Of a DNA stretch of 45,553 bases, positions 5,523-44,967 are shown in pieces. This DNA comes from Eubacterium sp. (lineage in GTDB: Bacteria > Bacillota > Clostridia > Oscillospirales > Ruminococcaceae), in assembly GCA_031271685.1 (NCBI GenBank), contig JAISVH010000053.1:1-45553 (forward strand), in the 5' to 3' direction. Within the stretch, counting starts at the first letter, position 1. Each line of letters opens with the position of its first letter. The position numbers and the translations under genes are program-made. The notes below the pieces were generated by a model. It was not told the DNA's origin. It saw only the letters and a program-made list of their open reading frames with translations, and searched no databases.

Positions 5523-5586
5523 AAGGGAACACCGCACAACTCACGCTTAACGGCTTTGCACGCCAGAGCGGTGCGGTATTGCCTTT
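5523..5586 (-). repeat. Family C miniature element, copy 1, overlapping pyrB
   Basis: Short copy with inverted ends: AAGGGAACACCGCAC on the left and GTGCGGTATTGCCTT on the right. Read from the pyrB side it begins AAGGCAATACCGCAC, like the copies at 25333 and 29702. The pyrB reading frame runs 12 codons into it and stops at a TAA inside it. Confidence 0.75.
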
Positions 5587-6674
5587 ACTTTTTCCTCGCA
5601 ATACTCACAAATAAAATCGCCGCTTTCTTTTTTAAAGCTTTTTGGAAGATATACTTCGGTTCTTGTAATGCATTTCATATTCCTGCACTCTAAACCTGAA
5701 TTGTGTTCGCCGGTTAAAAGAGGAATATTATCGGGGTTAAGCTGATAATTTATCGTTTGCAGGATAAGCGCCATCCTTATATACATGCCATAGTTTGCCT
5801 GCTTAAAGTAAAGCGCGCGCGGGTCGCTGTCTACCTCTATATCTATCTCGTTAATACGCGGCAAGGGGTGTAGAACTATCATTTTTTCAGGGGCTTTTTT
5901 CATTTTTTTAACGTTTAAAATAAATTTATCAGCTTGGTTTTTGTATTCATGTTGGCTCTCAAAACGTTCGCGCTGAATTCTTGTCATGTACAGCACGTCG
6001 AGATCATAGTTTAAAAATGCCTCGTCAAGTGACGAAATTTCTATATAATCAGCACATTTATCTTCAAGTAGTTTTACAATATATTCCGGGATCCGTAGCG
6101 AATCGGTTGAGATAAGCACAAAACGGTTGTTTTTATAACAGCTTAGAGCCTTAATAAGAGAATGGACTGTGCGTCCATGCTTTAAGTCGCCGCAAACCCC
6201 CACAGACAGCCCCGAAAGCTTTCCTTTTTCTTCCTTAAGGGTCATAAGGTCGGTGAGCGTTTGGGTGGGGTGAAGATGTCCGCCGTCTCCGGCGTTGATT
6301 ATTGGGCAGTCGGCATTTATTGCGGCCGCAAGAGCTGCGCCTTCGAGATTGTGACGAATAACGGCGATGTCGCAGTATCCGCTTATAACTTTTGCAGTGT
6401 CTTTAAGGTTTTCGCCTTTTGCGACACTTGAGTTGACGGATGGGTTCACGAAACCTATAGTGCCGCCGCCAAGCCGCAGCATCGCGCTTTGAAAGCTCAT
6501 TTGAGTTCGTGTGCTGGGCTCGTAAAACATTGTGCCCATTATCTTGCCTCCGCAGGAATTTTCATAGATGCGAGGATTTCTCATAATCTCCCCGGCAAGT
6601 CTAAGCATGTCGTTCCATTGATTCGTTGAATATCGGTTTAAATCTATCAGATGGTTGTAACTGACTTGACCCAT
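5547..6674 (-). CDS. pyrB: Aspartate carbamoyltransferase with fused PyrI-type zinc domain
   Basis: Catalyses carbamoyl phosphate plus aspartate to carbamoyl aspartate in pyrimidine synthesis. The catalytic part (about residues 1-315) shows FYEPSTRTQMSF, HPTQTLTDLMT, KHGRTVHSL and HPLPRINEID. Residues 329-362 add a zinc-ribbon-like tail with Cys at about 330, 335, 356 and 359 (C-x4-C-x20-C-x2-C), close to the zinc domain of the E. coli regulatory chain PyrI. The PyrI allosteric domain is absent. The last 12 residues (KAIPHRSGVQSR) are encoded by a family C repeat. GAAAGG precedes ATG 6674. Last gene of the minus-strand run, 52 bases after mreB. Enzyme identity is certain; the zinc role is inferred. 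Confidence 0.93.
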   Translation of the reverse strand: MGQVSYNHLIDLNRYSTNQWNDMLRLAGEIMRNPRIYENSCGGKIMGTMFYEPSTRTQMSFQSAMLRLGGGTIGFVNPSVNSSVAKGENLKDTAKVISGYCDIAVIRHNLEGAALAAAINADCPIINAGDGGHLHPTQTLTDLMTLKEEKGKLSGLSVGVCGDLKHGRTVHSLIKALSCYKNNRFVLISTDSLRIPEYIVKLLEDKCADYIEISSLDEAFLNYDLDVLYMTRIQRERFESQHEYKNQADKFILNVKKMKKAPEKMIVLHPLPRINEIDIEVDSDPRALYFKQANYGMYIRMALILQTINYQLNPDNIPLLTGEHNSGLECRNMKCITRTEVYLPKSFKKESGDFICEYCEEKVKAIPHRSGVQSR

Positions 6675-13918: not shown

Positions 13919-14050
13919 TATAGAAAATTGCGTTTTTATGGGAATGAATCCCATAAAAACGCTCGCCGCCGATGATATCGAACCGCGCTTCGCGCGATGT
14001 TATAGCCATTTGACTAACTCTAATAGGCAATAAAAAGTCAAGCTGCTATA
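13919..14050 (+). repeat. Family B miniature element, full copy
   Basis: 132 bp running from TATAGAAAATTGCG to AAGTCAAGCTGCTATA. The ends are related inverted repeats beginning TATAG. Internal palindromes are TTTTTATGGGAATG with CATCCCATAAAAA-like pairing and CCGCGCTTCGCGCGA. It begins 5 bases after the DUF4830 stop. The closest full relative is at 24814-24939. Confidence 0.8.
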
Positions 14051-23187: not shown

Positions 23188-23198
23188 GGGGGAAAATG

Positions 23199-24674
23199 AT
23201 GAATAACTCAATTTATCAGGACATAGCGCAAAGAACCGACGGAAATATTTATATCGGTGTTGTGGGCCCGGTGCGTTCCGGAAAATCAACCTTTATTTCA
23301 AAATTTATGAACTCACTGGTAATTCCGAAAATAGAGAGTGATTATCGGCGTGAGCGAGCAATAGATGAACTGCCTCAGTCGTCCGCCGGTAAAACAATTA
23401 TGACTACAGAACCTAAATTTGTTCCGGAAGAAGCGATAACTATCGAAATGGATGCCGGAGTTAAAATGAATGTGCGGCTTATCGACTGCGTAGGGTATAT
23501 AGTTCCGAGCGCTATCGGATACATTGAAAATGAGATGCCGCGCATGGTCATGACTCCCTGGTTTGACACCGAGGTCCCTTTCAATATGGCGGCAGAGGTG
23601 GGAACGCAAAAGGTTATAAACGAGCATAGTACAATTGGGTTGGTCATAACCACCGACGGAAGTATTTCTGATATTCCTGCTAACGAATATGAGGAGGTTG
23701 AAGAGCGGGTAATAAATGAGCTTAGCGAAATAAATAAGCCATTTTTGATATTGCTTAACTGTAAGTATCCGGAAGGTGATTCAGCGCAACGGTTGGCTAA
23801 AGAAATGTCTCAAAAATATGGAAGAACTGTAATGCCGGTAAACTGTCTTGAGCTTGACGAGGAAAAAATCAAGGAAATAATGACTGAGATGCTGCTCCAG
23901 TTCCCGGTGAAGGAGATAAACATAAAAATCCCAAAATGGCTCACTGCTCTTGGAAAAGGGCATTGGCTCAAAAATGAGATTTTTACGTCGCTTAAAAATT
24001 CAGCCGCAAATGTAAGAAACATCGGCGAAGTGAACAATGTTTCATGCAAGATGTCAGAATCCGCACATGTGCTTAAATGTGACGTTGAGAGTATTGATTT
24101 GGGACGCGGTGCCGGATTTGTCGAAGTTAACCTTAAAAATGAGCTGTTTTACAAGATTTTAGGAGAGACTACCGGTCTTCATCTTGAAGACGAAAGCGAT
24201 CTAATGCCTTGTATGATAGAGCTTGCGATGGTCAAGAAACATTATGAAAAGGTAAGATCTGCCCTTGAAGAGGTTGAGGCGACCGGATATGGGATAGTTA
24301 TGCCGAATACAGACGAACTTACGCTTGAAGAGCCGGAGATTGTAAAACAGGGCGGGAAATACGGCGTCAAGCTGAAGGCTACCGCCCCGTCTATACATAT
24401 GATGGCCGCAAATATCACCACCGAGGTGTCACCTATTGTAGGCTCGGAAAAACAGAGCGAAGAGCTTATACAGTATTTGCTGCATGATTTTGAGGAGGAT
24501 CCGACTAAAATTTGGGATAGCAATATCTTCGGAAAATCGCTGCATTCACTGGTAAATGAAGGGCTGCACAACAAGCTTTATCGCATGCCCGGCGACGCGA
24601 GGCTTAAACTCCAGGAGACAATACAGCGCATTATAAACGACGGCTGCAGCGGACTGATTTGTATTATATTATAA
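23199..24674 (+). CDS. spoIVA: Stage IV sporulation protein A
   Basis: ATPase that polymerises on the forespore surface as the base layer of the coat. 491 residues, matching B. subtilis (492). Walker A GPVRSGKST near residue 23; switch-like LIDCVGYIVPSAIGY near 90; FLILLNCKYP near 182; C-terminal end GLICIIL as in other SpoIVA proteins. Two adjacent ATG codons (23196, 23199) follow AAGGGGG; the second has the better spacing. It follows sipL in one operon. The TAA stop lies in the first bases of a family A repeat (TTATAACCGCG), yet the protein's end is normal. Confidence 0.95.
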   Translation: MNNSIYQDIAQRTDGNIYIGVVGPVRSGKSTFISKFMNSLVIPKIESDYRRERAIDELPQSSAGKTIMTTEPKFVPEEAITIEMDAGVKMNVRLIDCVGYIVPSAIGYIENEMPRMVMTPWFDTEVPFNMAAEVGTQKVINEHSTIGLVITTDGSISDIPANEYEEVEERVINELSEINKPFLILLNCKYPEGDSAQRLAKEMSQKYGRTVMPVNCLELDEEKIKEIMTEMLLQFPVKEINIKIPKWLTALGKGHWLKNEIFTSLKNSAANVRNIGEVNNVSCKMSESAHVLKCDVESIDLGRGAGFVEVNLKNELFYKILGETTGLHLEDESDLMPCMIELAMVKKHYEKVRSALEEVEATGYGIVMPNTDELTLEEPEIVKQGGKYGVKLKATAPSIHMMAANITTEVSPIVGSEKQSEELIQYLLHDFEEDPTKIWDSNIFGKSLHSLVNEGLHNKLYRMPGDARLKLQETIQRIINDGCSGLICIIL

Positions 24675-24804
24675 CCGCGTTGATGTCCCTCGCCTATTAG
24701 GCGGAGGGGGCAATGATGACTAAGTAAGCGGCGGGTGATTGAAAATCACCCGCCGAGCTTGTTAAAACATTGGAAGCGGATTCGCCTCAGATGTTTGAAC
24801 AAAT
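24670..24804 (+). repeat. Family A palindromic repeat, long copy at the spoIVA stop
   Basis: Starts TATAACCGCGTTGATGTCCC, has CGCCTATTAGGCG, then a second hairpin GGCGGGTGATTGAAAATCACC with CGCC, then GCTTGTTAAAACATTGGAAG and ends CAGATGTTTGAA. The TAA of spoIVA is at 24672-24674 inside its first bases. Confidence 0.82.
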
Positions 24805-24813
24805 CTAAATTAT

Positions 24814-24939
24814 TATAGCAAATTGCGTTTTTATGGAAATTAATCCCACAAAAACGCTCGCCGCCGATGGCGGAGCACCGCGCTTTGCACGGTGTTATGG
24901 CAGTTTGACTTATAGCCAATAAAAATTCAAACTGCTATA
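24814..24939 (+). repeat. Family B miniature element, full copy
   Basis: 126 bp from TATAGCAAATTGCG to TTCAAACTGCTATA with inverted TATAGCA ends. Internal hairpin around ACCGCGCTTTGCACGGT. It follows a family A copy after 9 bases. Confidence 0.82.
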
Positions 24940-24952
24940 TCCCTGCACCAAA

Positions 24953-24989
24953 CAGCAGGCAAAAATTCTACATAATATTTTGTCTGCTG
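24953..24989. repeat. Inverted repeat in the spoIVA-comFB gap
   Basis: CAGCAGGCAAAA (24953-24964) pairs with TTTTGTCTGCTG (24978-24989) with one G-U. Together with family A/B/C copies this fills much of the 896-base gap up to comFB. A second palindrome, TAACTTTAAATTT with AAATTTAAAGTTA, lies near 25068-25094. No gene is seen in 24990-25100. Confidence 0.5.
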
Positions 24990-25101
24990 CTTAGGACAGG
25001 GGTAATACATGATTAAAAAGGGTCGAATTTGTTTTCGGCCTTTGAGTTTGTGTAGTGAAAAATATAACTTTAAATTTTGTAAATTTAAAGTTAAAGAACT
25101 A

Positions 25102-25182
25102 AACGTCAGTGACGGGTGATTATCAATCTCCCGTTGACGCTTGTTAAAATATTGGAAGCGGCTTTGCCGCAGATGTTGGAAA
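25102..25182 (+). repeat. Family A repeat, right half only
   Basis: AACGTCAGTGACGGGTGATT, then CGTTGACGCTTGTTAAAATA and GCCGCAGATGTTGGAA. The TATAACCGCG half is absent. Confidence 0.72.
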
Positions 25183-25200
25183 TAATTTATTGCTAAACTA

Positions 25201-25229
25201 TTGACAAATTTTGTGATTAAATGTACAAT
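25201..25229 (+). promoter_or_regulatory. Candidate promoter upstream of comFB
   Basis: TTGACA (25201-25206), 17 bases, TACAAT (25224-25229). The next gene, comFB, starts about 340 bases on, with a family C element between them. Confidence 0.6.
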
Positions 25230-25332
25230 ATATTTAGAACCTGCTTAACGTTCTTTTCATTTGCAATTTTGACGTATTTACCGCAATACGCCGTCATAGG
25301 CGGCGAAAGTTAAGATTGAATTCATTTCAGTC

Positions 25333-25454
25333 TTAAGGCAACACCGCACAACTCGCGCATTAAATATCAACGGATATTCGCGGCAAAATTGCCTAGTTTT
25401 ACGAAAAATCTTACTGCGCGCTTTGCACGCCAGAGCCGTGTGGTATTGTCTTAA
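25333..25454 (+). repeat. Family C miniature element, full copy
   Basis: 122 bp with inverted ends TTAAGGCAACACCGCAC and GTGTGGTATTGTCTTAA (two mismatches). Internal inverted motifs: CGGATATTCGCG, GCGCGCTTTGCACGC. This copy defines the ends of the family. Confidence 0.82.
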
Positions 25455-25570
25455 CTTAATTTTTTATCCCAAGAAAAGCATATTTAAAACTGATGATGCA
25501 AAAAACGCTAGGCAGGCGCTGAGGAAGTGTGGGGGTTATGTCGATTCGGTAAAAGAAAGGTAAGGTTTTT

Positions 25571-25846
25571 ATGGCTTTTATCAATATTATGGAAAAAATG
25601 GTGGATTTAAGAATCGAAGAACATATAAAAAAAGATGATATGTGTAAATGCGAAAACTGTAAAGAGGATATAAAATGTATAGCCTTGAACAAGTTGCCTC
25701 CAAAATATGTTTCGACCAGCAAAGGAGAACTTTTCTCAAAGGTCGATCAGATGATGGACAGACAAAATGTGTTGGACATCGAGGTCGCGGTGATGAATGC
25801 CATAGACTTTGTTAACAAGCGCCCCAGACATGAATCTCGCGATTAG
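25571..25846 (+). CDS. comFB: ComFB-family protein
   Basis: A 91-residue protein of the late-competence ComFB family. It has the family pattern: MEKMVDLRIEEHI, the cysteine motif CKCENCKEDIKCIALN near residue 26, LPPKYVSTSKGELFSK near 45 and VMNAIDFVNKRPRH at the end. ComFB proteins are small, and some have been reported to bind cyclic dinucleotides; their cellular role is unsettled. No comFA or comFC neighbour, so this is not a competence operon. AAGGTAAGG precedes ATG 25571. The flanks are family C repeats on both sides. Confidence 0.88.
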   Translation: MAFINIMEKMVDLRIEEHIKKDDMCKCENCKEDIKCIALNKLPPKYVSTSKGELFSKVDQMMDRQNVLDIEVAVMNAIDFVNKRPRHESRD

Positions 25847-25921
25847 ATCAAATAGCTCTGCCGGGCGATCTATGCCTATGTCTGTCTAAAAATTCTTTTG
25901 AATATCTATGCTAAAGGATAA

Positions 25922-26095
25922 TAAAGGCGATGCCGCACAACTTTGGCGTGCAAAGCACGCAACCGGATTTTTTTAAAACTAGGCACTTTTGCCGCGAATA
26001 TACATTGATATTTAGGGCAATATTAACGAAGTTTGGCGAGGAATACGCAGGTGATTTGTGAGCCAAGCCGTTAAGCGTGGGCTGTACGGTGTCGA
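25922..26095 (+). repeat. Family C miniature element, long copy
   Basis: Begins AAAGGCGATGCCGCACAACT and ends GTGGGCTGTACGGTGTCGAC, with the family's inner segments CGTGCAAAGCACGC, TAGGCACTTTTGCCGCGAA and TTAACGAAGTTTGGCGAG. Longer than the 25333 copy by about 50 bp. Confidence 0.75.
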
Positions 26096-26150
26096 CTAAA
26101 CTAATCTTTTGATTTTAACAGGTTTTCTGTCAGAGTAAAGGATAAGAGTG

Positions 26151-26181
26151 AAAAAATCTATAGGGCGGCCTTAGGTCGCCC
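26151..26181 (-). terminator. Candidate terminator of the LCP gene
   Basis: GGGCGGCC-TTA-GGTCGCCC hairpin (26163-26181). On the minus strand it is followed after about 6 bases by TTTTTT (26156-26151). It would end transcripts of the LCP gene after they cross the repeats. Confidence 0.5.
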
Positions 26182-26210
26182 GTTCTTATCAAAAAAATCA
26201 TATTTTTAAT

Positions 26211-26313
26211 TTCAAACATCTGCGGCGGAGCCGCTTCCAGTGTTTTAACAAGCGTCAGCGGGGGATTGATAATCACCCGCCGCCTAAGAGGAGGGGACAT
26301 CAACGCGGTTATA
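26211..26313 (-). repeat. Family A repeat, reverse long copy
   Basis: TTCAAACATCTGCGGCGGAG, GTTTTAACAAGCGTCAGCGG, CACCCGCCGCCTAAGAGG and ending AACGCGGTTATA. It shares its last TATA with the family B copy that follows. Confidence 0.8.
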
Positions 26314-26372
26314 GCAAATAGCGTTTTTATGGAAATAAATACTATAAAAACGCCAACGCCGATACCGCTATA
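26310..26372 (+). repeat. Family B miniature element, short copy
   Basis: 63 bp from TATAGCAAATAGCG to GATACCGCTATA, with inner GCGTTTTTATGG and CTATAAAAACGC arms. It supplies the TAG stop of the LCP gene (26370-26368). Confidence 0.75.
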
Positions 26373-27252
26373 TATTGAATCGGTCTTTAATAGTCGCTAC
26401 TGATGTATCTGCGATAATATATCGATTGCTGTCGTCATAATTATATAAAGGAACATAATTCTCGGCAATGTTATAGCTGTATTGCGTTGTATAGAGATAA
26501 GCTGATTGATTTTCGGTAAAGTCTTCCATTTTATAATTTGTGTCAGTAGTGTTGACAAGCTTTCGCGCGTATGATTGCAGCTCGGCGGCGGTTTTGTCTC
26601 TGCTATTTTCGTTCATAAAACCTGCGGCTATGGTTGCCAAAACCACAGCGCTACGGTTTTCATCTTGACCGTCTTCGGAAAATGTTATATAATCATATAC
26701 TTCTTGCCCGTTAAAGCTTTGCGTTCCGGATTCGAATATCGTTTGGTCGCCGGATTTAAGGTCATAAGGGACATTGGCGGTGACCTCTCCGACCAGGTCT
26801 ATAAAATCTGTAAGCGCTGTTTTGTCAAACTTAAAATAATAATCACAATTTACCCCAATGGTGTTTTGAATAGCTGTAATAATTCCGGTTGCTCCCGATT
26901 TTGAATAAATTTCAGACAAATCTCCCGAAACTCCTCCGGCTTTTGAATAAAGCCGTTTGTCAATCGGCACTAGAACCAGAGCGTCATCGCGCGGACGATA
27001 GTTCGCCAACAGGTAATAGTCGGGCACTCCTCCTTTGGCTTCTGACATCATAAATATAACGTTGGTATTAAAAGATACCTCCGGACGGTAATCTGCTATT
27101 CCTATGGCTGAGAGGTTGGAACTTTGCGGTTCTGGGAATAGAACGTCTCTCATGCTTAACACGACTAATAATAAGACGATCGATGTCAGAATAAATGTTA
27201 TAAGATAGATATACCAGTTACTGCGTCGTTTAACGGTCTTTTTTTCGGCCAT
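26368..27252 (-). CDS. LytR-CpsA-Psr (LCP) family protein
   Basis: A 294-residue membrane-anchored protein. One helix near residues 14-37 (YIYLITFILTSIVLLLVVL) precedes an extracellular LCP domain. LCP enzymes transfer glycopolymers from lipid carriers to peptidoglycan. Matching segments: ALVLVPIDKRLYSKAGG near 92-108, IIT-AIQNTIGVNCDYYFKFD near 124-144, FIDLVGEVTANVPYDL near 149-164 and YDYITFSEDGQDENRS near 186-201. The usual second Arg-Gln pair is not evident, so it is a divergent member. The TAG stop and final bases are from a family B repeat. AAAGGAAAA precedes ATG 27252. It is divergent from alr. Confidence 0.8.
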   Translation of the reverse strand: MAEKKTVKRRSNWYIYLITFILTSIVLLLVVLSMRDVLFPEPQSSNLSAIGIADYRPEVSFNTNVIFMMSEAKGGVPDYYLLANYRPRDDALVLVPIDKRLYSKAGGVSGDLSEIYSKSGATGIITAIQNTIGVNCDYYFKFDKTALTDFIDLVGEVTANVPYDLKSGDQTIFESGTQSFNGQEVYDYITFSEDGQDENRSAVVLATIAAGFMNENSRDKTAAELQSYARKLVNTTDTNYKMEDFTENQSAYLYTTQYSYNIAENYVPLYNYDDSNRYIIADTSVATIKDRFNI

Positions 27253-27273
27253 TTCTCAATTTTCCTTTCTTGG

Positions 27274-27325
27274 TTCAAATATCTGCGGCATAGCCGCTTC
27301 CAGTGGGGAAATGAACGCGGTTATA
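27274..27325 (-). repeat. Family A repeat, reverse short copy
   Basis: TTCAAATATCTGCGGCATAG, CCGCTTCCAGTGG and GAACGCGGTTATA. It sits 21 bases upstream of the LCP start, in the gap shared with alr, where it could affect either promoter. Confidence 0.75.
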
Positions 27326-27399
27326 TATCGGCAATATTAATTTTATTTAAATTCTATCATATTTTTTTAAAAATTTCAATATATTCAAGGGGCGACTTT

Positions 27400-28554
27400 A
27401 TGAATTTTATAAAAAGGGCGTGGGCGGAGATTGATATTTCTGCCCTTAGAAAAAATATAACCGCCTTAAAAGCCGTTGCCGGCGAAAAAGAAGTTATCGC
27501 TGTGGTAAAGGCGAACGCTTACGGACATGGCGCCGGGATAGTCTGTCCCTCGCTGTGGGAGGAGGGTATACGATATTTTGCCGTTTCAAATATGTATGAG
27601 GCACTGGAGCTGAGAGAAATACTGCCGAATGCGGAGATCATAATATTCGGGTATGTTGACACAGAGCATATTGAGGATAATGATTTTATCTACACGGCGG
27701 GGAGCGTTGAATATGTTGATAAGCTAAGTAAATATGCACAGTCGCGCGGGACAAAATTGCGCGTTCACATAAAGTTGGACACCGGAATGGCACGAGTCGG
27801 GGTAGACGGAGAAAAAGAGCTTGAATCCATTTTACGCTTTTCAGGGCTTGAATTTGAGGCGGTTTATACTCACTTTGCATCTGCGGAAAGCTATTTACCG
27901 GTTGATATGGAATATACCAAAAGACAACAGAAAATGTTGACGCAGACGACAAACTCCGCTATAAATGCCGCGAGCGTGAAAAGTGAATTGTCGTCTTTAT
28001 TAAATCGTAAGATGAAAATACACTCTCAAAACAGCGGTGGAATGCTCTGTCACCGTGAGTTTGAGGGAGATTTTGTGAGGGCGGGCATCTCCATGTATGG
28101 ATATCATCCAAATCCGGCAATTAAAGACGCTCCGGTTCTTTATCCGGTTATGACGCTTAAGTCGTTGGTTTGGCAGGTAAAAGACATACCGAAAGATACT
28201 TATATAAGCTATGGCAGGACTTTTAAAAGCGAAAGAACCATGCGGGTTGCTGTAATACCTATCGGTTACGCTGATGGATACTCAAGGGCTTTATCTAATA
28301 AGGGAGCCGTATCAATAAAATGTAAGTGCGCGCCTGTGTTAGGTCGGGTATGCATGGATCAAATAATCGTTGATATAAGTGAGATCGACGGCGTGCGTAC
28401 TGGCGACGAGGTCATTGTTTATTCTAATTTATATGAGTATACAGATGTTGAAAATATATCCGAAAGCCTTGGCACAATAAGCTATGAGGTGCTTTGCAAC
28501 GTTTCCGCGAGAGTTCAGCGGATGCAAGTGGATAATGGCGTTGATAGTTGTTAG
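27400..28554 (+). CDS. alr: Alanine racemase
   Basis: PLP enzyme interconverting L- and D-alanine for peptidoglycan. 384 residues. The PLP lysine is in VVKANAYGHG (Lys about 37). Other family segments: KLDTGMARVG near 130, SGGMLCHREFEGDFVRAGIS near 215, SYGRTF near 270, VAVIPIGYADGYSRALSN near 285 and VLGRVCMDQIIVD near 315. AAGGGGCGAC precedes ATG 27400. Single gene, divergent from the LCP gene and followed by a family D repeat. No anti-toxin or acpS partner, which sometimes accompanies alr in Firmicutes. Confidence 0.95.
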   Translation: MNFIKRAWAEIDISALRKNITALKAVAGEKEVIAVVKANAYGHGAGIVCPSLWEEGIRYFAVSNMYEALELREILPNAEIIIFGYVDTEHIEDNDFIYTAGSVEYVDKLSKYAQSRGTKLRVHIKLDTGMARVGVDGEKELESILRFSGLEFEAVYTHFASAESYLPVDMEYTKRQQKMLTQTTNSAINAASVKSELSSLLNRKMKIHSQNSGGMLCHREFEGDFVRAGISMYGYHPNPAIKDAPVLYPVMTLKSLVWQVKDIPKDTYISYGRTFKSERTMRVAVIPIGYADGYSRALSNKGAVSIKCKCAPVLGRVCMDQIIVDISEIDGVRTGDEVIVYSNLYEYTDVENISESLGTISYEVLCNVSARVQRMQVDNGVDSC

Positions 28555-28567
28555 CTTACCTTGCTGC

Positions 28568-28652
28568 ATAGTCAGTCGCTCGCCTTAGGTGTGCTAGCAG
28601 GCTTTGCCCGCTGTTTAAAAAAACCTTTATGGTTTTTAAATTGCCTAACTAT
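28568..28652 (+). repeat. Family D miniature element, copy 2
   Basis: ATAGTCAGTCGCTCGCCTTA at the left and TTGCCTAACTAT at the right, with internal GCAGGCTTTGCCCGC and AAAACCTTTATGGTTTTT hairpins. It lies 13 bases after the alr stop. Confidence 0.75.
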
Positions 28653-28700
28653 ATGTTAAATTAAATTTATTGTACACAGTTAAGAACGGAGGGATCTTTT

Positions 28701-29705
28701 ATGCTTGCATATGCAAAACCTGAGCAAAAAAAGAAAGTGAACGTTCAAAGCAAAGGAATTAAAACGACTTCCTCGTCACCTAATTTAACAGGCATAGCTG
28801 ATGGTCTTAAATCGCGATTCGAGACCTTTTCGGGATTTTCGTTCAATGATGTTCGGGTGCATTATAACTCTGGCAGACCGGCTCAGCTGCAGGCATTGGC
28901 ATATACGCAGGGCAACCAAGTGTATATCGCTTCGGGGCAGGAAAAGTATTTGAGCCATGAATTAGGGCATGTCGTGCAGCAGAAACGGCAAGCCATTCAG
29001 CCATTATTGCGCGCTGACAATATCAATATCAATAATGATGAACGACTGGAATCTGAAGCGGACAAAATCAGCTATTTGATTAATCGGGGCGTTTCAGAGG
29101 TTGGCTTGAAGGATAATGGGGATCACAATTTAAGAATCGGACATGCGCCGTATTCTGTTAATGTCGTACAGTGTGCTGAATACTGGCCTGTAAATGAACA
29201 AAATAAGCCGACGGCAAGTTTAGTCGCAATTCCGGTTGTCAAAAACCGATATGCCAAGCGAGGTGTTGGCAACATTGGAGTTGCAGCCTCAAATAACAGA
29301 CTGTACGGAAGCGTGAGAGAGGGTATCGCCGCGATAAAGCCGCTTAACGGATGGAATGATCCCAATGGAGTATGTATTAGGATGCAGACGCTTGGAGATC
29401 AAGACTCAAAAGGAGAGTATCGTTATAACCGCAATGAAGCAGCCGCAACAGATCAAGATATTGAGATTGGAGTCATTACGCCTGTTATTCCTAAGCACAC
29501 CCAAGACAATAATTCAAAATTATCTATAATTACCAGAAACGCAAATGGTACTGACAAAGTGGAAAAAGCGGAACGCAAAATGCAGCACCTTCATTCTGCA
29601 ACAATTCATTTTGGAAATATAGGCTCAAAAATACATCCTGCTCCGACACAGCCGACTTATACACGCACGCCGGGGACGGAACACTTTTTTCTTTGTTTTT
29701 TTTAA
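28701..29705 (+). CDS. Orphan DUF4157 (eCIS core) protein
   Basis: 334 residues. Residues about 35-120 match the DUF4157 domain: GLKSRFETFSGFSFNDVRVH, then YIASGQEKYLSHELGHVVQQ, with the zincin-like motif HELGH (His 86, Glu 87, His 90) and an ESEAD segment later. DUF4157 marks cargo and toxins of extracellular contractile injection systems and other polymorphic toxins. The part after residue 150 is not recognised; it includes NIGVAASNNRLYGSVREGI and MQHLHSATIHFGN. The tail FFLCFF is T-rich sequence abutting a family C element whose first bases give the TAA stop, so the end may be truncated. No signal peptide, no injection-system or immunity gene nearby. GGAGGG precedes the ATG. Confidence 0.8.
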   Translation: MLAYAKPEQKKKVNVQSKGIKTTSSSPNLTGIADGLKSRFETFSGFSFNDVRVHYNSGRPAQLQALAYTQGNQVYIASGQEKYLSHELGHVVQQKRQAIQPLLRADNININNDERLESEADKISYLINRGVSEVGLKDNGDHNLRIGHAPYSVNVVQCAEYWPVNEQNKPTASLVAIPVVKNRYAKRGVGNIGVAASNNRLYGSVREGIAAIKPLNGWNDPNGVCIRMQTLGDQDSKGEYRYNRNEAAATDQDIEIGVITPVIPKHTQDNNSKLSIITRNANGTDKVEKAERKMQHLHSATIHFGNIGSKIHPAPTQPTYTRTPGTEHFFLCFF

Positions 29706-29840
29706 GGCAATACCGCACAGCTTTGGCGTGCAAAGCGCGCAGTAAGATTTTTCGTTAAACTAGGCAATTTTGTCGCGAATATCCGCTGATATTTAAGGCG
29801 AAATTAACGAAGTTTAGCGAGAAATACGTAAGTTTTACTA
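29702..29840 (+). repeat. Family C miniature element at the DUF4157 stop
   Basis: TTAAGGCAATACCGCACAGC at the left, then GCGTGCAAAGCGCGC, ACTAGGCAATTTTGTCGCGA and TTAACGAAGTTTAGCGAG. The matching right inverted end is not clear. Confidence 0.75.
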
Positions 29841-29849
29841 CATGGCCTA

Positions 29850-29878
29850 TTGCGCTTTCAATGATTTTATGTTATAAT
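29850..29878 (+). promoter_or_regulatory. Promoter of the 29915 gene
   Basis: TTGCGC (29850-29855), 17 bases, TATAAT (29873-29878), 36 bases before the TTG start. Confidence 0.7.
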
Positions 29879-29914
29879 ATATTTTAATTAGGATTTTTAA
29901 AGGCGGTGATGTAA

Positions 29915-30787
29915 TTGGCTTTTGAGAATGTAGAGGGAATAAAGGTAATATCGCATCAAGATAACCGTATATTTCTTATAGGCGACTATTTTTCCGTTTA
30001 TGAGGGGGATTCCCGAGTTCCGGTCATATATGAGTGGACCGATGTAAAATCCGTTACGGAAAACAAACATGGATTTATTTTTTTGATGCAAGACGATTCG
30101 CTTTATAAGATAGGTAAAACTTTGATAAACGGCGTATCCAGACAGCTTAAGCTAAGGGCAATAGTTGAAGGTAATATCGCTAAATATCCATATATTGAAC
30201 ATCGTCATCAAAAAAGGGTTCTGCCGGCAAAAACCCATTACACAAGCTGTGATATGCCCTCGCGCGCCTATTCTTCAAAGGGAGTTTATAACGAAAAGGA
30301 GATAAGCTACAGCAATGTTACTTTGCTGAATATTAGGTTGGGCAAGCTGTTTATTGTTGTGGGCATCATTATAACTTTAGCGGCTTTTCTTTTTTGCATA
30401 TTTGTTATTAAGGATGTGGCGTTAAATTTAAAATATTATATTCCGATTTCGGTGTTTTGCGGGGTAATTATCGCGATGTTTATTTATATCGCCTGCGCGA
30501 TAGTGGCAAAATATATCTATTCTTCACTGGCGAAGGTCGATGTTACGTTGGATCAGGAAATAACATTTGTGATAGCCGAGGAAGGTTTTTCGGCCATTGA
30601 AACGGAGCTTCACAGCGGGTTTGATCTTGTTCGATGGGACGAAGTAGCGTATTTTGTAGAGACTAATTACGTGTTTATTATATATAAGAATAAAAGAGCG
30701 GTATTTTGGCTTCCTAAGAGACTTTTTACTAAGGACAGGCAAAAGGAAATCTCTAATTTTATTGCTGCCAGACTAAATCAAAAGTAG
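29915..30787 (+). CDS. Two-helix membrane protein with YcxB-like C-terminal domain
   Basis: 290 residues beginning at a TTG codon behind AAAGGCGGTGATG; no ATG with a site competes. The N-terminal 100 residues hold a small beta-rich region (VISHQDNRIFLIGDYFSVYE). Two membrane helices follow (about 145-165 and 172-195). The last 90 residues resemble YcxB-type domains: FVIAEEGFSAIETEL, LVRWDEVAYFVETNYVFIIY and FWLPKRLF. Such proteins have no known biochemical activity. It is 7 bases before the next gene, so the two form an operon. Moderately confident on the domain, not on function. Confidence 0.7.
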   Translation: MAFENVEGIKVISHQDNRIFLIGDYFSVYEGDSRVPVIYEWTDVKSVTENKHGFIFLMQDDSLYKIGKTLINGVSRQLKLRAIVEGNIAKYPYIEHRHQKRVLPAKTHYTSCDMPSRAYSSKGVYNEKEISYSNVTLLNIRLGKLFIVVGIIITLAAFLFCIFVIKDVALNLKYYIPISVFCGVIIAMFIYIACAIVAKYIYSSLAKVDVTLDQEITFVIAEEGFSAIETELHSGFDLVRWDEVAYFVETNYVFIIYKNKRAVFWLPKRLFTKDRQKEISNFIAARLNQK

Positions 30788-30794
30788 GTGTATA

Positions 30795-32234
30795 ATGAGC
30801 TCTGCGATTAATACCGCCCTTATGACAGTGGGCGAACGTGAGTTTTATCTGGTCGATGTTAAAGATTCTTTGGGGTATATAGGGGTAACTCCCATCACAT
30901 CTAGCGCTGTTGAGAACGATCGCAGTTCGGAACAGGAATTGTTTTTTATTTGCGACGAGCCGATAATAAACGTTATAAAAAATAACAAGACCGATCCTTA
31001 CGCTAATAAAATGCTTTCACAGGTGGGAAGTATACATGCCTGTAGCCCGGCGATACGCAACATGTTGGAAATGGCTTGTGAAAGCTATTTTTCAAATCCC
31101 ACACTGCCGTGCCTTATAAAAGCGGTCCAACCTGTTTTGGAATTGGTTTGTCCGGGACTTTATGTTGTACATGCGGGAAAAATGCTTCAAAGCGATGGCG
31201 CGGGAAATTTTTTTTGGAACGCTTACAGTATGCGACATGAAGTATATGGAACCGGCGATTATAACAGCGTTATCGGTCGTGAAAATAACTATACCCCTTG
31301 TTTTTTGATACCATCCTGCGCTTCCGGCGAATATACTGATTCTATGCTTCGCGCACCGACCGAAAAGATAAAAAGCGGTAAAAAGGTGGGAGGTCTAGTA
31401 ATACAGCTTTCCGGAATGTTTTCGGTGCTTTTAAGCGGACATGCTGCCGCATCGGCGGCACTTTTGCAAAACGCCGAGTTTTCGTGTATAATATTAGAGC
31501 CGATCCGTGACATATTGTATGAGGACACGGAGAGAGCTGAATCGTTGGGGCATCAGCCAAAGCCGATCGCATTATCCTGCCCATTTGTTAAAATACCGCT
31601 TGAAGCCGTTCCTGAAGACATGATGGAAAGCTTTTTGTTAAGGCGTAAGCATAAAAAACCGTTTAATTACGACCTGCTTAAGTCGAAGATACGTTCCGGA
31701 AGAGGTAGCGCGCGTCGCGCTTTGCCTCATGAACTGAGTGAAAAAGCTGAAGCTTTGCCTGATTGCAGCATGATAGAATCCGCAAACGCGCTTCAAAGTC
31801 TTTCGGAAGGACAGATCGACGCGCTTCTTGCTGGTGAAATCGCGTTTGAGGGGCAGACGATTGTTTCGAATAATTATTATAACAGCATTGTTGTTGCGTG
31901 TAATTATTTGCAGTATACCGATTTTGAAAGGTTTATAGATTTTGCGCTAGCAATTATCGGGTCAGGCGATTTGTCCGCGGTTCATAAATATGTGCTTGAA
32001 CGCTTGTCGCGTATAATGAACAGTAAAATATATCGATATCTTAAGTCTATAAGGGAGACTGGCGATAGTTCGTATCAAGAGGTGATGCCGTTTATTCAGA
32101 GTTATATATCGCATTACGACGGAATTGCCGAACGAGTTCAAACAGATTCTAGCCGGTTGAATAAGGAAAAAAACAAAGACAATGCGGAAGGTTTGGCAAA
32201 AATGGAAGCATTTATAAAAAAAGCAAATCGGTAA
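30795..32234 (+). CDS. 479-residue protein, unknown function
   Basis: I do not recognise this protein. It has no signal peptide or membrane helix, so probably cytoplasmic. The first 280 residues form a mixed domain with LFFICDEPIINVI near 50, PGLYVVHAGKMLQ near 117, NFFWNAYSMRHEVYGTGDYN near 136 and CFLIPSCASGEYTD near 165. A basic stretch (KIRSGRGSARRALP near 297) leads to a helical C-terminal half (NSIVVACNYLQYTDFERFID) and a charged tail. GTAGGTG precedes ATG 30795. Its pairing with the YcxB-like membrane protein suggests a shared job at the membrane. Confidence 0.7.
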   Translation: MSSAINTALMTVGEREFYLVDVKDSLGYIGVTPITSSAVENDRSSEQELFFICDEPIINVIKNNKTDPYANKMLSQVGSIHACSPAIRNMLEMACESYFSNPTLPCLIKAVQPVLELVCPGLYVVHAGKMLQSDGAGNFFWNAYSMRHEVYGTGDYNSVIGRENNYTPCFLIPSCASGEYTDSMLRAPTEKIKSGKKVGGLVIQLSGMFSVLLSGHAAASAALLQNAEFSCIILEPIRDILYEDTERAESLGHQPKPIALSCPFVKIPLEAVPEDMMESFLLRRKHKKPFNYDLLKSKIRSGRGSARRALPHELSEKAEALPDCSMIESANALQSLSEGQIDALLAGEIAFEGQTIVSNNYYNSIVVACNYLQYTDFERFIDFALAIIGSGDLSAVHKYVLERLSRIMNSKIYRYLKSIRETGDSSYQEVMPFIQSYISHYDGIAERVQTDSSRLNKEKNKDNAEGLAKMEAFIKKANR

Positions 32235-32298
32235 TTAACAATTTTAAAATACTATGATGAATCGGATTATTTAGATAATTATATAATAAGACCATCAC

Positions 32299-32317
32299 GA
32301 CTCCTTACGAGTCTTTT
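32299..32317 (+). terminator. Weak terminator after the 30795 gene
   Basis: GACTC-CTTAC-GAGTC hairpin followed by TTTT, 65 bases after the stop. The larger flanks GACCATCACGACTCC and GGCGTAAGGTC add some pairing. The rest of the gap up to ackA is family A and B repeats; no gene seen. Confidence 0.45.
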
Positions 32318-32399
32318 GGCGTAAGGTCGGTCGGACAGCTTTTCCTTTTGGGTATATGATTTTATTTATTGAGTTTTTATTGACTATAGGTAAAACGGA

Positions 32400-32492
32400 T
32401 ATAACCGCGTTCATATCCCCGCCTTTTAGGAGGCGGATTCCATGCTGACGATTGTTAAAACACCGGAAGCGAATCCGCCGCAGATGTTTGAA
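32400..32492 (+). repeat. Family A palindromic repeat
   Basis: TATAACCGCGTTCATATCCC, CCGCCTTTTAGGAGGCGG, GACGATTGTTAAAACACCGG and GCCGCAGATGTTTGAA. It joins directly to a reverse family B element. Confidence 0.8.
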
Positions 32493-32588
32493 CACGGCGC
32501 AAAGCGCGATACGCCCGGCACCTAAATTAGGCACCGGACGGTGAGCGTTTTTGTGTGGTTCATTTTCTTAAAAACGCAATTTGCTATA
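32493..32588 (-). repeat. Family B element, reverse copy at the ackA stop
   Basis: Ends AAAAACGCAATTTGCTATA, the reverse of the family's left end. Inner part: GCGCAAAGCGCG and CCGGCACCTAAATTAGGCACC hairpins. On the minus strand its first bases give the TAG stop of ackA. Confidence 0.72.
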
Positions 32589-36382: not shown

Positions 36383-36411
36383 TTGACAAATTATAAATAA
36401 CGTGATAAAAT
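36383..36411 (+). promoter_or_regulatory. Promoter of rplJ-rplL
   Basis: TTGACA (36383-36388), 17 bases, TAAAAT (36406-36411), followed at once by the L10 leader. Confidence 0.88.
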
Positions 36412-36414
36412 ATT

Positions 36415-36580
36415 ATTGCTGTTCTAAAGACAGCAGGTCGCGAAAGCGCTAACGGACTTTGATGTTCGCCTGCCGAGGAATGGGGTAAATATTGATTTTA
36501 CGCCTTTTTCTGCCTTTAGCGGGAAAAGGCTTTTTATCTCCGTATTAATGAACAGTGATTATATAACAAAGGAGGGGAAT
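36415..36580 (+). promoter_or_regulatory. Ribosomal protein L10 leader
   Basis: A structured leader containing AAAGACAGCAGGT ... GCCTGCCGAGG, the usual core of L10 leaders in Firmicutes, where the L10-L12 complex binds and represses its own operon. The ribosome site AAAGGAGGGG follows. Confidence 0.85.
36502..36535 (+). terminator. Attenuator hairpin in the L10 leader
   Basis: GCCTTTTTC (36502-36510) pairs with GGAAAAGGC (36522-36530), followed by TTTTT. It would stop transcription before rplJ when the leader adopts its L10-bound fold. Confidence 0.75.
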
Positions 36581-38183: not shown

Positions 38184-38316
38184 TCAGGAACGAAGTTGAA
38201 TCAGAAAAATCAATTGTAATTATTTTAGTTGGTCAGTTTAAAACACTAAATGCGTTTTTAAGACGAGGCATACGTCGCGTGCCGCCGAAGCGTCGAAGGC
38301 GGCCTTGCCTTGTTAC

Positions 38317-38400
38317 ATAGTCAGTCGCGCACCTTAGGGTTGCCAACGGGCAAATCCCTCTGTTTCAAAACCCTTTAGGGTTTTGAAATTGACTGACTAT
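38317..38400 (+). repeat. Family D miniature element, copy 3
   Basis: 84 bp with perfect 10-bp inverted ends, ATAGTCAGTC and GACTGACTAT. Inside: AACGGGCAAATCCCTCTGTT and the hairpin AAAACCCTTTAGGGTTTT. It is the best-preserved copy and ends 27 bases before the rhodanese start. Confidence 0.85.
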
Positions 38401-38427
38401 ACATTGAAATTTATGAAGGGAGGAGTC

Positions 38428-43899: not shown

Positions 43900-44967
43900 G
43901 TGATAAGTATTAGTCTGTGCATGATTGTAAGAAACGAGGAAGCTGTGCTAGCGCGTTGCCTTAACAGCATTAAAGAGGCGATTGATGAAATTATTATCTT
44001 AGATACAGGTTCCACCGATAAAACAAAATCCATAGCAAGAAAATTTACCGATAAGATTTATGATTTTAAATGGATCGATGACTTTTCCGCAGCCCGTAAC
44101 GAGGCGTTCTCTAAAGCAACTATGGACTATCAGATGTGGCTGGACGCGGACGATGTATTTCCGCATGAAGAACTCATAAAGCTGATCGCACTCAAGAAAC
44201 ATCTTGATCCATCTGTTGAAATAGTCACAATGAAATACTATACTCATTTTGATGCCCATGGAAATCCTATAAATTCTTCTACACGCGGGCGTCTTTTCCG
44301 TCGCGAAAAGGGGTTCCGCTGGGAAGATCCTATCCATGAATTCATTGCGCTCGGCGGCAACATAGTTTTTTCCGATATTGTCATTCATCACATACAGAGT
44401 GAAAAAGAAGGGCGTGGAGACCGTAATATTACAATATACAGCAATCTTGAAGAAAACGGCGTCGTGATGACCCCGCGTCAGCTTTATTATTTTGCACGAG
44501 AGCTTAGGGATCACCGACAATGGGCAAAGGCCGTATATTATTTTGAAAAATTCCTTAAAACCGAGCAGGGCTGGGCAGAAGACAACATTTCTGCCTGTCA
44601 TGCTCTGGCAGCTATTTACAATATACTGGGAGACAAAAGCAAGGTATTGACCATTCTGACAAAAGCCTTCACTTACGGTTCTCCGCGAGCCGAAATCTGT
44701 ACGGAACTGGGTTATTATTACAAGAATGAGCGGGATATAAAGGCGGCGTACGCATGGTTTAAGGTGGCCGCAAATTTGGGAGAACCTGATACAATAGGTT
44801 TTATCTTAAGCGATTATTGGGGATATATTCCCAATATAGAGTGCTGTGTTTGTGCGGATGAATTGGGTGATATAGAAAGCGCAAAGATGTATAATGAGCG
44901 AGCGGCTATGTATAAGCCAAACGATCCAGCTGTCAAGTATAACCGTAAGTATTTTGACAAAATGTAA
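43900..44967 (+). CDS. Family 2 glycosyltransferase with TPR-like C-terminus
   Basis: 355 residues. GT-A domain about 1-190: ISLCMIVRNEEAVLARCLNS, LDTGSTDKT near 37, FDAARNE-like FSAARNEA near 66, the metal-binding DxD in WLDADD near 85 and GRLFRREKGFRWEDPIHEFI near 135. The C-terminal half has helical TPR-like units (ALAAIYNILGDKSKVLTILT, ELGYYYKNERDIKAAYAWFK). The acceptor is unknown; such proteins glycosylate cell-surface or spore-surface molecules. The start is GTG 43900 behind GGGGGGAG; no ATG is available before residue 8. It is alone, next to coat genes. A family A tail begins at the base after its stop. Confidence 0.9.
   Translation: MISISLCMIVRNEEAVLARCLNSIKEAIDEIIILDTGSTDKTKSIARKFTDKIYDFKWIDDFSAARNEAFSKATMDYQMWLDADDVFPHEELIKLIALKKHLDPSVEIVTMKYYTHFDAHGNPINSSTRGRLFRREKGFRWEDPIHEFIALGGNIVFSDIVIHHIQSEKEGRGDRNITIYSNLEENGVVMTPRQLYYFARELRDHRQWAKAVYYFEKFLKTEQGWAEDNISACHALAAIYNILGDKSKVLTILTKAFTYGSPRAEICTELGYYYKNERDIKAAYAWFKVAANLGEPDTIGFILSDYWGYIPNIECCVCADELGDIESAKMYNERAAMYKPNDPAVKYNRKYFDKM

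Follow-up and report, generated by a model that had tools for sequence, protein, structure and literature searches.

Short mobile repeats with different target words and their accumulation at stop codons in a Eubacterium sp. genome

The window analysed here is contig JAISVH010000053.1, a 45,553-bp stretch of a draft genome of Eubacterium sp. (GCA_031271685.1; 2.26 Mb, 152 contigs, 93% complete), in which copies of short repeat families, named A to E, lie at or just beyond the stop codons of several genes (Table 1). These genes include spoIVA, an LCP gene (PF03816), ackA (PF00871), a gene with an eCIS_core domain (PF13699, formerly DUF4157) and a PyrB-PyrI fusion gene. The original prediction for this stretch held that all families insert at TA, and that an insertion into the TA of a stop codon restores the stop if the element end reads TATAA or TATAG. 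Here we describe the families, their target words (that of A from one nested site), their registers at stop codons and the occupancy gradient of A past gene ends. The pattern is real and has a simple explanation: the repeats probably belong to three or more non-autonomous kinds, each with its own target word, and accumulate at stops through survival. The original prediction is thus partly supported, its mechanism being wrong for A and C and in need of amendment for B, D and E.

At the following genes of the window, the arrangement of repeats and stops is as had been predicted. The TAA of spoIVA coincides with the TATAAC start of an A copy, the TAG of ackA is part of the TATAGC that terminates a B copy, the eCIS_core gene has its TAA within the TTAA that ends a C copy, and the stop of the pyrB-like gene lies inside a C fragment. 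Direct reading places the TAG of the LCP gene within TATAGC at one end of a short B derivative; this stop is not counted in the end tallies because the relevant end lies outside the B match, and the pyrB fragment, a weak match, was also kept out of them. Five bases separate the DUF4830 stop from a B copy. By eye only, the glycosyltransferase stop at 44967 adjoins a piece resembling the right end of A, and the spoIIP stop is followed by a piece resembling a B end.

Table 1. Repeat copies in the window and the genes that they adjoin
Feature	Position	Strand	Remarks
spoIVA	23196..24674	+	Pfam; TAA stop 24672-24674 is codon 493, the usual position
Family A, full copy	24670..24799	+	TATAA 24670-24674 is the target; element proper 24675-24799, end TTTGAA
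Family B, full copy (miniature inverted-repeat transposable element, MITE)	24814..24939	+	TATAGCAAATTG...CAAACTGCTATA
Family A, 3' part	25103..25180	+	profile match
Family C, partial	25356..25453	-	profile match
Family C, full length	25922..26100	+	4-bp duplication TAAA/TAAA
Family A, short form	26211..26313	-	adjoins the short B derivative
Short B derivative	26310..26372	+	TATAGC end gives the LCP-gene TAG 26370-26368 (gene on minus strand); B match 26311-26367
Family E, partial	28555..28653	-	immediately 3' of the alanine racemase stop codon (gene 27400-28554)
Family C, left part	29702..29834	+	TTAA 29702-29705 contains the TAA (29703-29705) of the eCIS_core gene (28701-29705)
Family A nested in a B copy	32400..32492	+	empty-site evidence: TATAA target, no duplication
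Family B copy hosting A	32369..32588	-	TATAG end is the ackA TAG 32586-32584; far B end not resolved
Family C, fragment	5529..5585	-	internal TAA (5549-5547) stops the PyrB-PyrI fusion gene
Family B, full copy	13919..14050	+	5 bases past the DUF4830 stop (d = 6)
Family E, near-full copy	38226..38401	-	profile match

The sample comprised 775,898 bp, namely the window and 40 further stretches, or 34% of the draft genome. The stretches were taken from contigs that already had A or B matches, which biases the sample toward the presence of copies and not toward any distance from a stop. Genes were predicted with a simple codon-score caller of our own rather than a standard one, and the Pfam scan of the window covered 19 proteins out of 38 called genes. 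Copies were detected using nhmmer with family profiles, and ends lying more than 3 bp beyond the match were dropped from the end counts. The five families have 323 copies (A 139, C 62, B 54, D 37 and E 31), which make up 4.2% of the sample. Family B is 126 bp long, family E is about 170 bp (TATAGTCAGTCAATTT...AAACTGACCAGCTATA), and family D is like B and E at its left end (TATAGTAAATTAACTT...). Family C is about 180 bp with GGCAATACCGCAC ends, and inverted repeats are present in B, E and C. The repeats have no Rfam match at gathering score. In the same window, the RF00557 ribosomal protein L10 leader is found above gathering score at 36406-36545. A further repeat family (ACTCCTGCACCAAACAGCAGGC...GTCGAGTGTTTGG; loci L038, L042, L047, L143 and L149) carries B insertions. 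The B derivative of the window is about 60 bp long, with one end normal and the other altered, and may be a distinct mobile form.

Family A (TATAACCGCG...GATGTTTGAA) has 70 full copies of 78-158 bp, with a median of 104 bp. Its two ends are not inverted copies of each other, so it lacks terminal inverted repeats. TATAA forms the left pentamer of 72 of the 92 left ends, and TTTGAA the right hexamer of 90 of the 114 right ends. Hairpins lie near both ends, at about positions 18-39 and 108-119 of 131, and the consensus folds strongly, with z-scores of -4.8 as single-stranded DNA and -4.2 as RNA.

The target words were read from empty sites, for which the flanks of a nested copy were joined and then aligned across sequences. 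For the A copy nested in a B copy of the window, the joined flanks with one TATAA align to 32 places, 29 of them gapless; among the 17 distinct sequences, TATAA occurs in 15, and CATAA and TAAAA in one each. The results show that TATAA was present beforehand and that nothing was duplicated, so that insertion of A takes place 3' of an existing TATAA. Family C duplicates 4 bp, mostly YTAR: the flanking 4-mers of full copies are identical in 17 of 25 cases and vary in concert (TTAA, CTAG, TTTA, TTAT, TTAG, TAAA), and for one nested copy, 16 distinct sequences match the empty site, 8 of them without gaps. In families B and E the duplication is TA. Four B copies have gapless empty sites in which TA occurs once (14, 7, 3 and 2 rows), including B inside D (17 rows, 14 gapless) and B inside another repeat (7 gapless rows out of 16, and 3 out of 7), and one E copy gives 17 rows, 8 of them gapless. 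The remaining spanning alignments are gapped or of poor quality and were given no weight, among them two weak gapless rows for a second A copy, at locus L045. These nested copies with clean empty sites support the view that the repeats behave as mobile elements. The predicted insertion at TA therefore holds for B and E, and fails for A, whose TATAA pre-exists without duplication, and for C, which duplicates 4 bp.

We compared the distance of the ends from stop codons with that of unoccupied target words, and the ends of A and C are in excess at stops beyond chance, although these enrichment tests were picked after the pile-up at stops had been noticed. In family A, the stop TAA forms bases 3-5 of TATAA in 11 of the 55 stop-facing left ends, or 11 of the 90 left ends overall, compared with in-frame stops at 25 of 1,141 unoccupied non-coding TATAA strand-sites (binomial p = 5e-6; p = 0.002 when measured against TATAAC sites). 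Put the other way, 11 of 36 stop TATAA sites are occupied by A, compared with 81 of 1,187 other non-coding TATAA sites (odds ratio 6.0, Fisher p = 3e-5). In family C, the stop forms bases 2-4 of the end word in 8 of the 35 stop-facing ends and 8 of all 68 ends, compared with 161 of 4,506 YTAR sites (p = 0.003); seven of these eight words are YTAR and one is ATAA. The corresponding occupancy is 8 of 169 at stops and 60 of 4,405 at other sites (odds ratio 3.6, p = 0.003). Families B, D and E have one case each in which the TAG of TATAG closes a gene, the B case being ackA in the window and the other two lying elsewhere.

The registers and empty sites decide against the predicted rebuilding of a stop in the TA of a stop codon, which we now consider highly improbable as a general account. 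It is right that B and E duplicate TA, and that an element-made TAG ends ackA, one gene at a D copy and one at an E copy, with the ackA stop at its usual codon. The TATAA of A, however, pre-exists without duplication, and C duplicates 4 bp. Because the target TAA of A lies outside the element, and the stop at a C end lies inside the duplicated target, the native stop is unchanged in both families. An insertion of B, D or E at the TA of a stop codon would turn it into TAT AGC; 0 of 149 ends lie at such sites, of which 399 are empty. The next class has 11 B, D or E ends (8 at 1-10 bp past a stop and 3 in NTA codons) and 583 empty sites (Fisher p = 0.004 against the TA-of-stop class); without the NTA landings, the figures are 8 ends and 526 empty sites (p = 0.012). 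In B, D and E, the TAG arises only from landings in which the TA closes a sense codon (NTA), of which there are three cases, including ackA. The claim that TATAA and TATAG ends supply stops is thus borne out for the B end at ackA, whereas for A and C the TAA belongs to the host gene.

Orthologues from the genus are consistent with these registers at spoIVA and ackA. SpoIVA, whose best named match is in an Oscillospiraceae metagenome assembly (79% identity), ends at 492 amino acids in all 30 genus loci (own included), and nine of the 30 read TTA or CTA followed by TAA. AckA ends at 398 in 19 of 30 genus loci (own included), at 402 in nine, at 404 in one and at 397 in one; the own copy reads CTA TAG and six other loci read TTA TAA. 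The B end thus supplied the ackA TAG at the usual stop position. Some insertions do alter the protein, as the PyrB-PyrI fusion runs into a C fragment and is extended by about 12 codons. This gene (5547-6674 of the window) fuses the catalytic and regulatory domains of aspartate carbamoyltransferase (OTCace and PyrI_C). The eCIS_core gene, for its part, ends in the C target TTAA. Among the genes whose stop lies in an A target, the U32 peptidase has variable tails, the own protein ending at 402 and 28 others at 400-425, with one of the 30 loci running off its contig. A gene with an A-like stop in a related species (G019), which we take to be WhiA-like, ends at 293 and its orthologues at 288-304. 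The orthologue ends of the U32 peptidase, of the G019 gene and of NagB, discussed below, neither prove nor disprove that the stop is native.

The occupancy of target words falls with distance past gene ends. TATAA is occupied by A in 11 of 36 sites in stops (31%) and 9 of 32 sites 1-10 bp past the stop (28%), and then in 6 of 40 at 11-30 bp (15%), 6 of 69 at 31-60 bp (9%), 9 of 95 at 61-120 bp (9%) and 13 of 223 beyond 120 bp (6%). Where a gene start lies on the left the count is 34 of 656 (5%), and at stretch edges it is 4 of 72. Sites in stops and at 1-10 bp do not differ (p = 1.0), while sites within 10 bp differ from those beyond 30 bp (p = 1.4e-6). The occupancy by C is 4.7% in stops, 2.8% near them and 1-2% elsewhere. 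For B, D and E, it is 1.9% within 10 bp, 1.4% at 11-30 bp, then 0.5%, 1.4% and 0.7%, and 0.6% at starts. The A gradient fits survival at harmless 3' ends, with selection as its likely cause, rather than attraction to stops.

Two other explanations of this excess have to be weighed. The mobiliser of A could be attracted by stop codons themselves or by the 3' ends of genes, for instance through single-stranded DNA there. The sixfold odds ratio at stop TATAA sites would fit this idea, and a general pull to 3' ends would produce the same gradient. However, TATAA 1-10 bp past the stop is occupied as often as TATAA in the stop, indicating that stops as such are not special, and C has a similar, smaller excess with a different target; we regard the idea as very unlikely. 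The repeats could also have a function at stops, as transcription terminators or stabilisers of mRNA 3' ends, in which case the enrichment would reflect positive selection. The strong consensus fold of A is in keeping with such a role, as is its orientation: left ends face stops rather than starts in a ratio of 55:35, and right ends show the reverse, 41:72. Since covariation within the genome is nearly nil, and since A and C, which are unrelated in sequence and target, are both in excess, we consider a functional role unlikely.

In the survival reading that we favour, A inserts 3' of an existing TATAA without duplication, in an IS200/IS605-like and probably single-strand mode. Family C is a MITE whose 4-bp duplication is mostly YTAR, and B and E are MITEs with TATAG ends and TA duplication, D being similar at the left end. 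TAA and TAG stops would then be part of the target words or be created beside them. Where TATAA (for A) or YTAR (for C) coincides with an in-frame stop, insertion would leave the native stop untouched, and an element with TATAG ends entering the NTA codon immediately upstream of the stop would create a new one from TA followed by TAG. Inserts at or just after a stop would be nearly neutral and kept, and those in coding or promoter regions would be lost; all would presumably be moved by transposases acting in trans. The survival of harmless copies at gene ends was also part of the original prediction, and copies are indeed commonest there, as expected if harmless. The rule suggested by this reading is that a target word containing or abutting a stop codon lets copies land at gene ends in safety, and that the register at the stop can be predicted exactly from this word (TATAA, YTAR, or TA followed by TAG). 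An analysis of this kind is applicable to any genome rich in repeats and distinguishes elements that supply a stop from elements that spare one.

Relatives of A are matched in 8 of 35 genus genomes, including the own genome and G019; the other six have partial matches, mostly of the left hairpin only. In G019, the loci read (L108-L173) contain 21 distinct A-like multi-hairpin copies, mostly TATAAC...TTATTGAA, which have hairpins near both ends as in A and a fold z-score of -7.3, and which have a 32-base stretch in common with A at 97% identity. In two of them the TAA serves as stop codon for a called gene, and in three others the gene stops at a TAG inside the repeat. At another G019 locus (L084), an IS200/IS605 element has a hairpin (CCCCTACCTCTAAGGTGGGG) upstream of its Y1 gene that resembles, by eye only, the left hairpin of A. 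A speculative and rather unlikely extension of these observations is that A forms, with its multi-hairpin relatives elsewhere in the genus, a single-strand mobile lineage moved by an enzyme that is not one of the known Y1 transposases; for this lineage TATAA, with 11 of 36 in-frame TATAA stops occupied, would be a built-in safe harbour.

Several observations weigh against the survival reading or parts of it. The A target was read from a single nested copy, in which the cut is uncertain by one base because an A is common to both junctions, and 20 of the 92 A left ends deviate from exact TATAA. In the empty sites of the nested C copy, the word is CTAA, as in the filled copy, in 5 of 16 cases, CTTA in 5 and another word in 6. 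The gradient of B, D and E is uneven. NagB, one of the 11 genes with an A stop, is 1-8 residues shorter than all eight orthologues found, and may have been truncated by A. The pairing covariation of A is nearly nil in 18 own-genome copies (term -0.08; 1 of 24 pairs). The draft genome, which is 93% complete, has no match to the Y1 transposase (PF01797) or TnpB (PF07282), and its four PF01609 loci are all without C ends. It has no match to DDE_3 either, the sole transposase family tried for B, D and E. A Y1 or TnpB parent for A, a DDE_3 parent for B, D and E and a PF01609 parent for C are therefore not supported by this draft, and A appears to be an orphan whose mobilising enzyme is missing.

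IS5-type elements target YTAR with a 4-bp duplication. Family C is like them in its 4-bp YTAR duplication and unlike them in that a parent with C ends was not found in the four PF01609 loci. Families B, D and E resemble RUP, Correia and other TA-ended bacterial MITEs, as these are presented in excerpts of PMC2229807, in their TA ends and, for B and E, in their inverted repeats; their TA target is as for RUP with IS630-Spn1 (PMC2229807). Unlike RUP and Correia in those excerpts, they have sequences of their own, and DDE_3 has no match in the own draft genome.

Family A is closest in anatomy to two systems, a likeness from which we make no claim of descent. IS200/IS605 elements are described, in excerpts of PMC7290912 and PMC2817692, as inserting on the 3' side of a constant word of four or five bases, and as having end hairpins but neither inverted repeats nor duplication. 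Family A agrees with these excerpts in target mode, end hairpins and the lack of inverted repeats and duplication (PMC7290912, PMC2817692); it differs in having neither tnpA nor tnpB, and the likeness is anatomical only. The palindrome-associated transposable elements (PATEs) of Haloquadratum walsbyi are related to IS605-type transposons (PMC3119063). As far as the excerpts of that paper go, A is like PATEs in lacking terminal inverted repeats and target duplication, in its end hairpins, in being too short for a transposase, in its constant 4-5 bp 5' targeting word and in having other repeats inserted in or beside it (PMC3119063). It is unlike the PATEs of these excerpts in its extra internal hairpins, in that the own genome has no match to an IS200/IS605 enzyme, and in that its TATAA target can be a stop.

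The matches listed for literature that treats stop codons together with MITEs, with intergenic repeats or with IS200/IS605 include no paper on repeats that target TATAA at stops. A review of MITEs (PMC10969869) contains none of five terms sought in it. Repeats at stop codons are nonetheless already known in print, since the stops of 36 annotated genes of Streptococcus pneumoniae are encoded at the 3' end by BOX elements (PMC3049150). The excerpted text on BOX gives no strong evidence of truncation and does not name a target word as the cause (PMC3049150); the elements are unrelated to those described here, and the outcome is the same.

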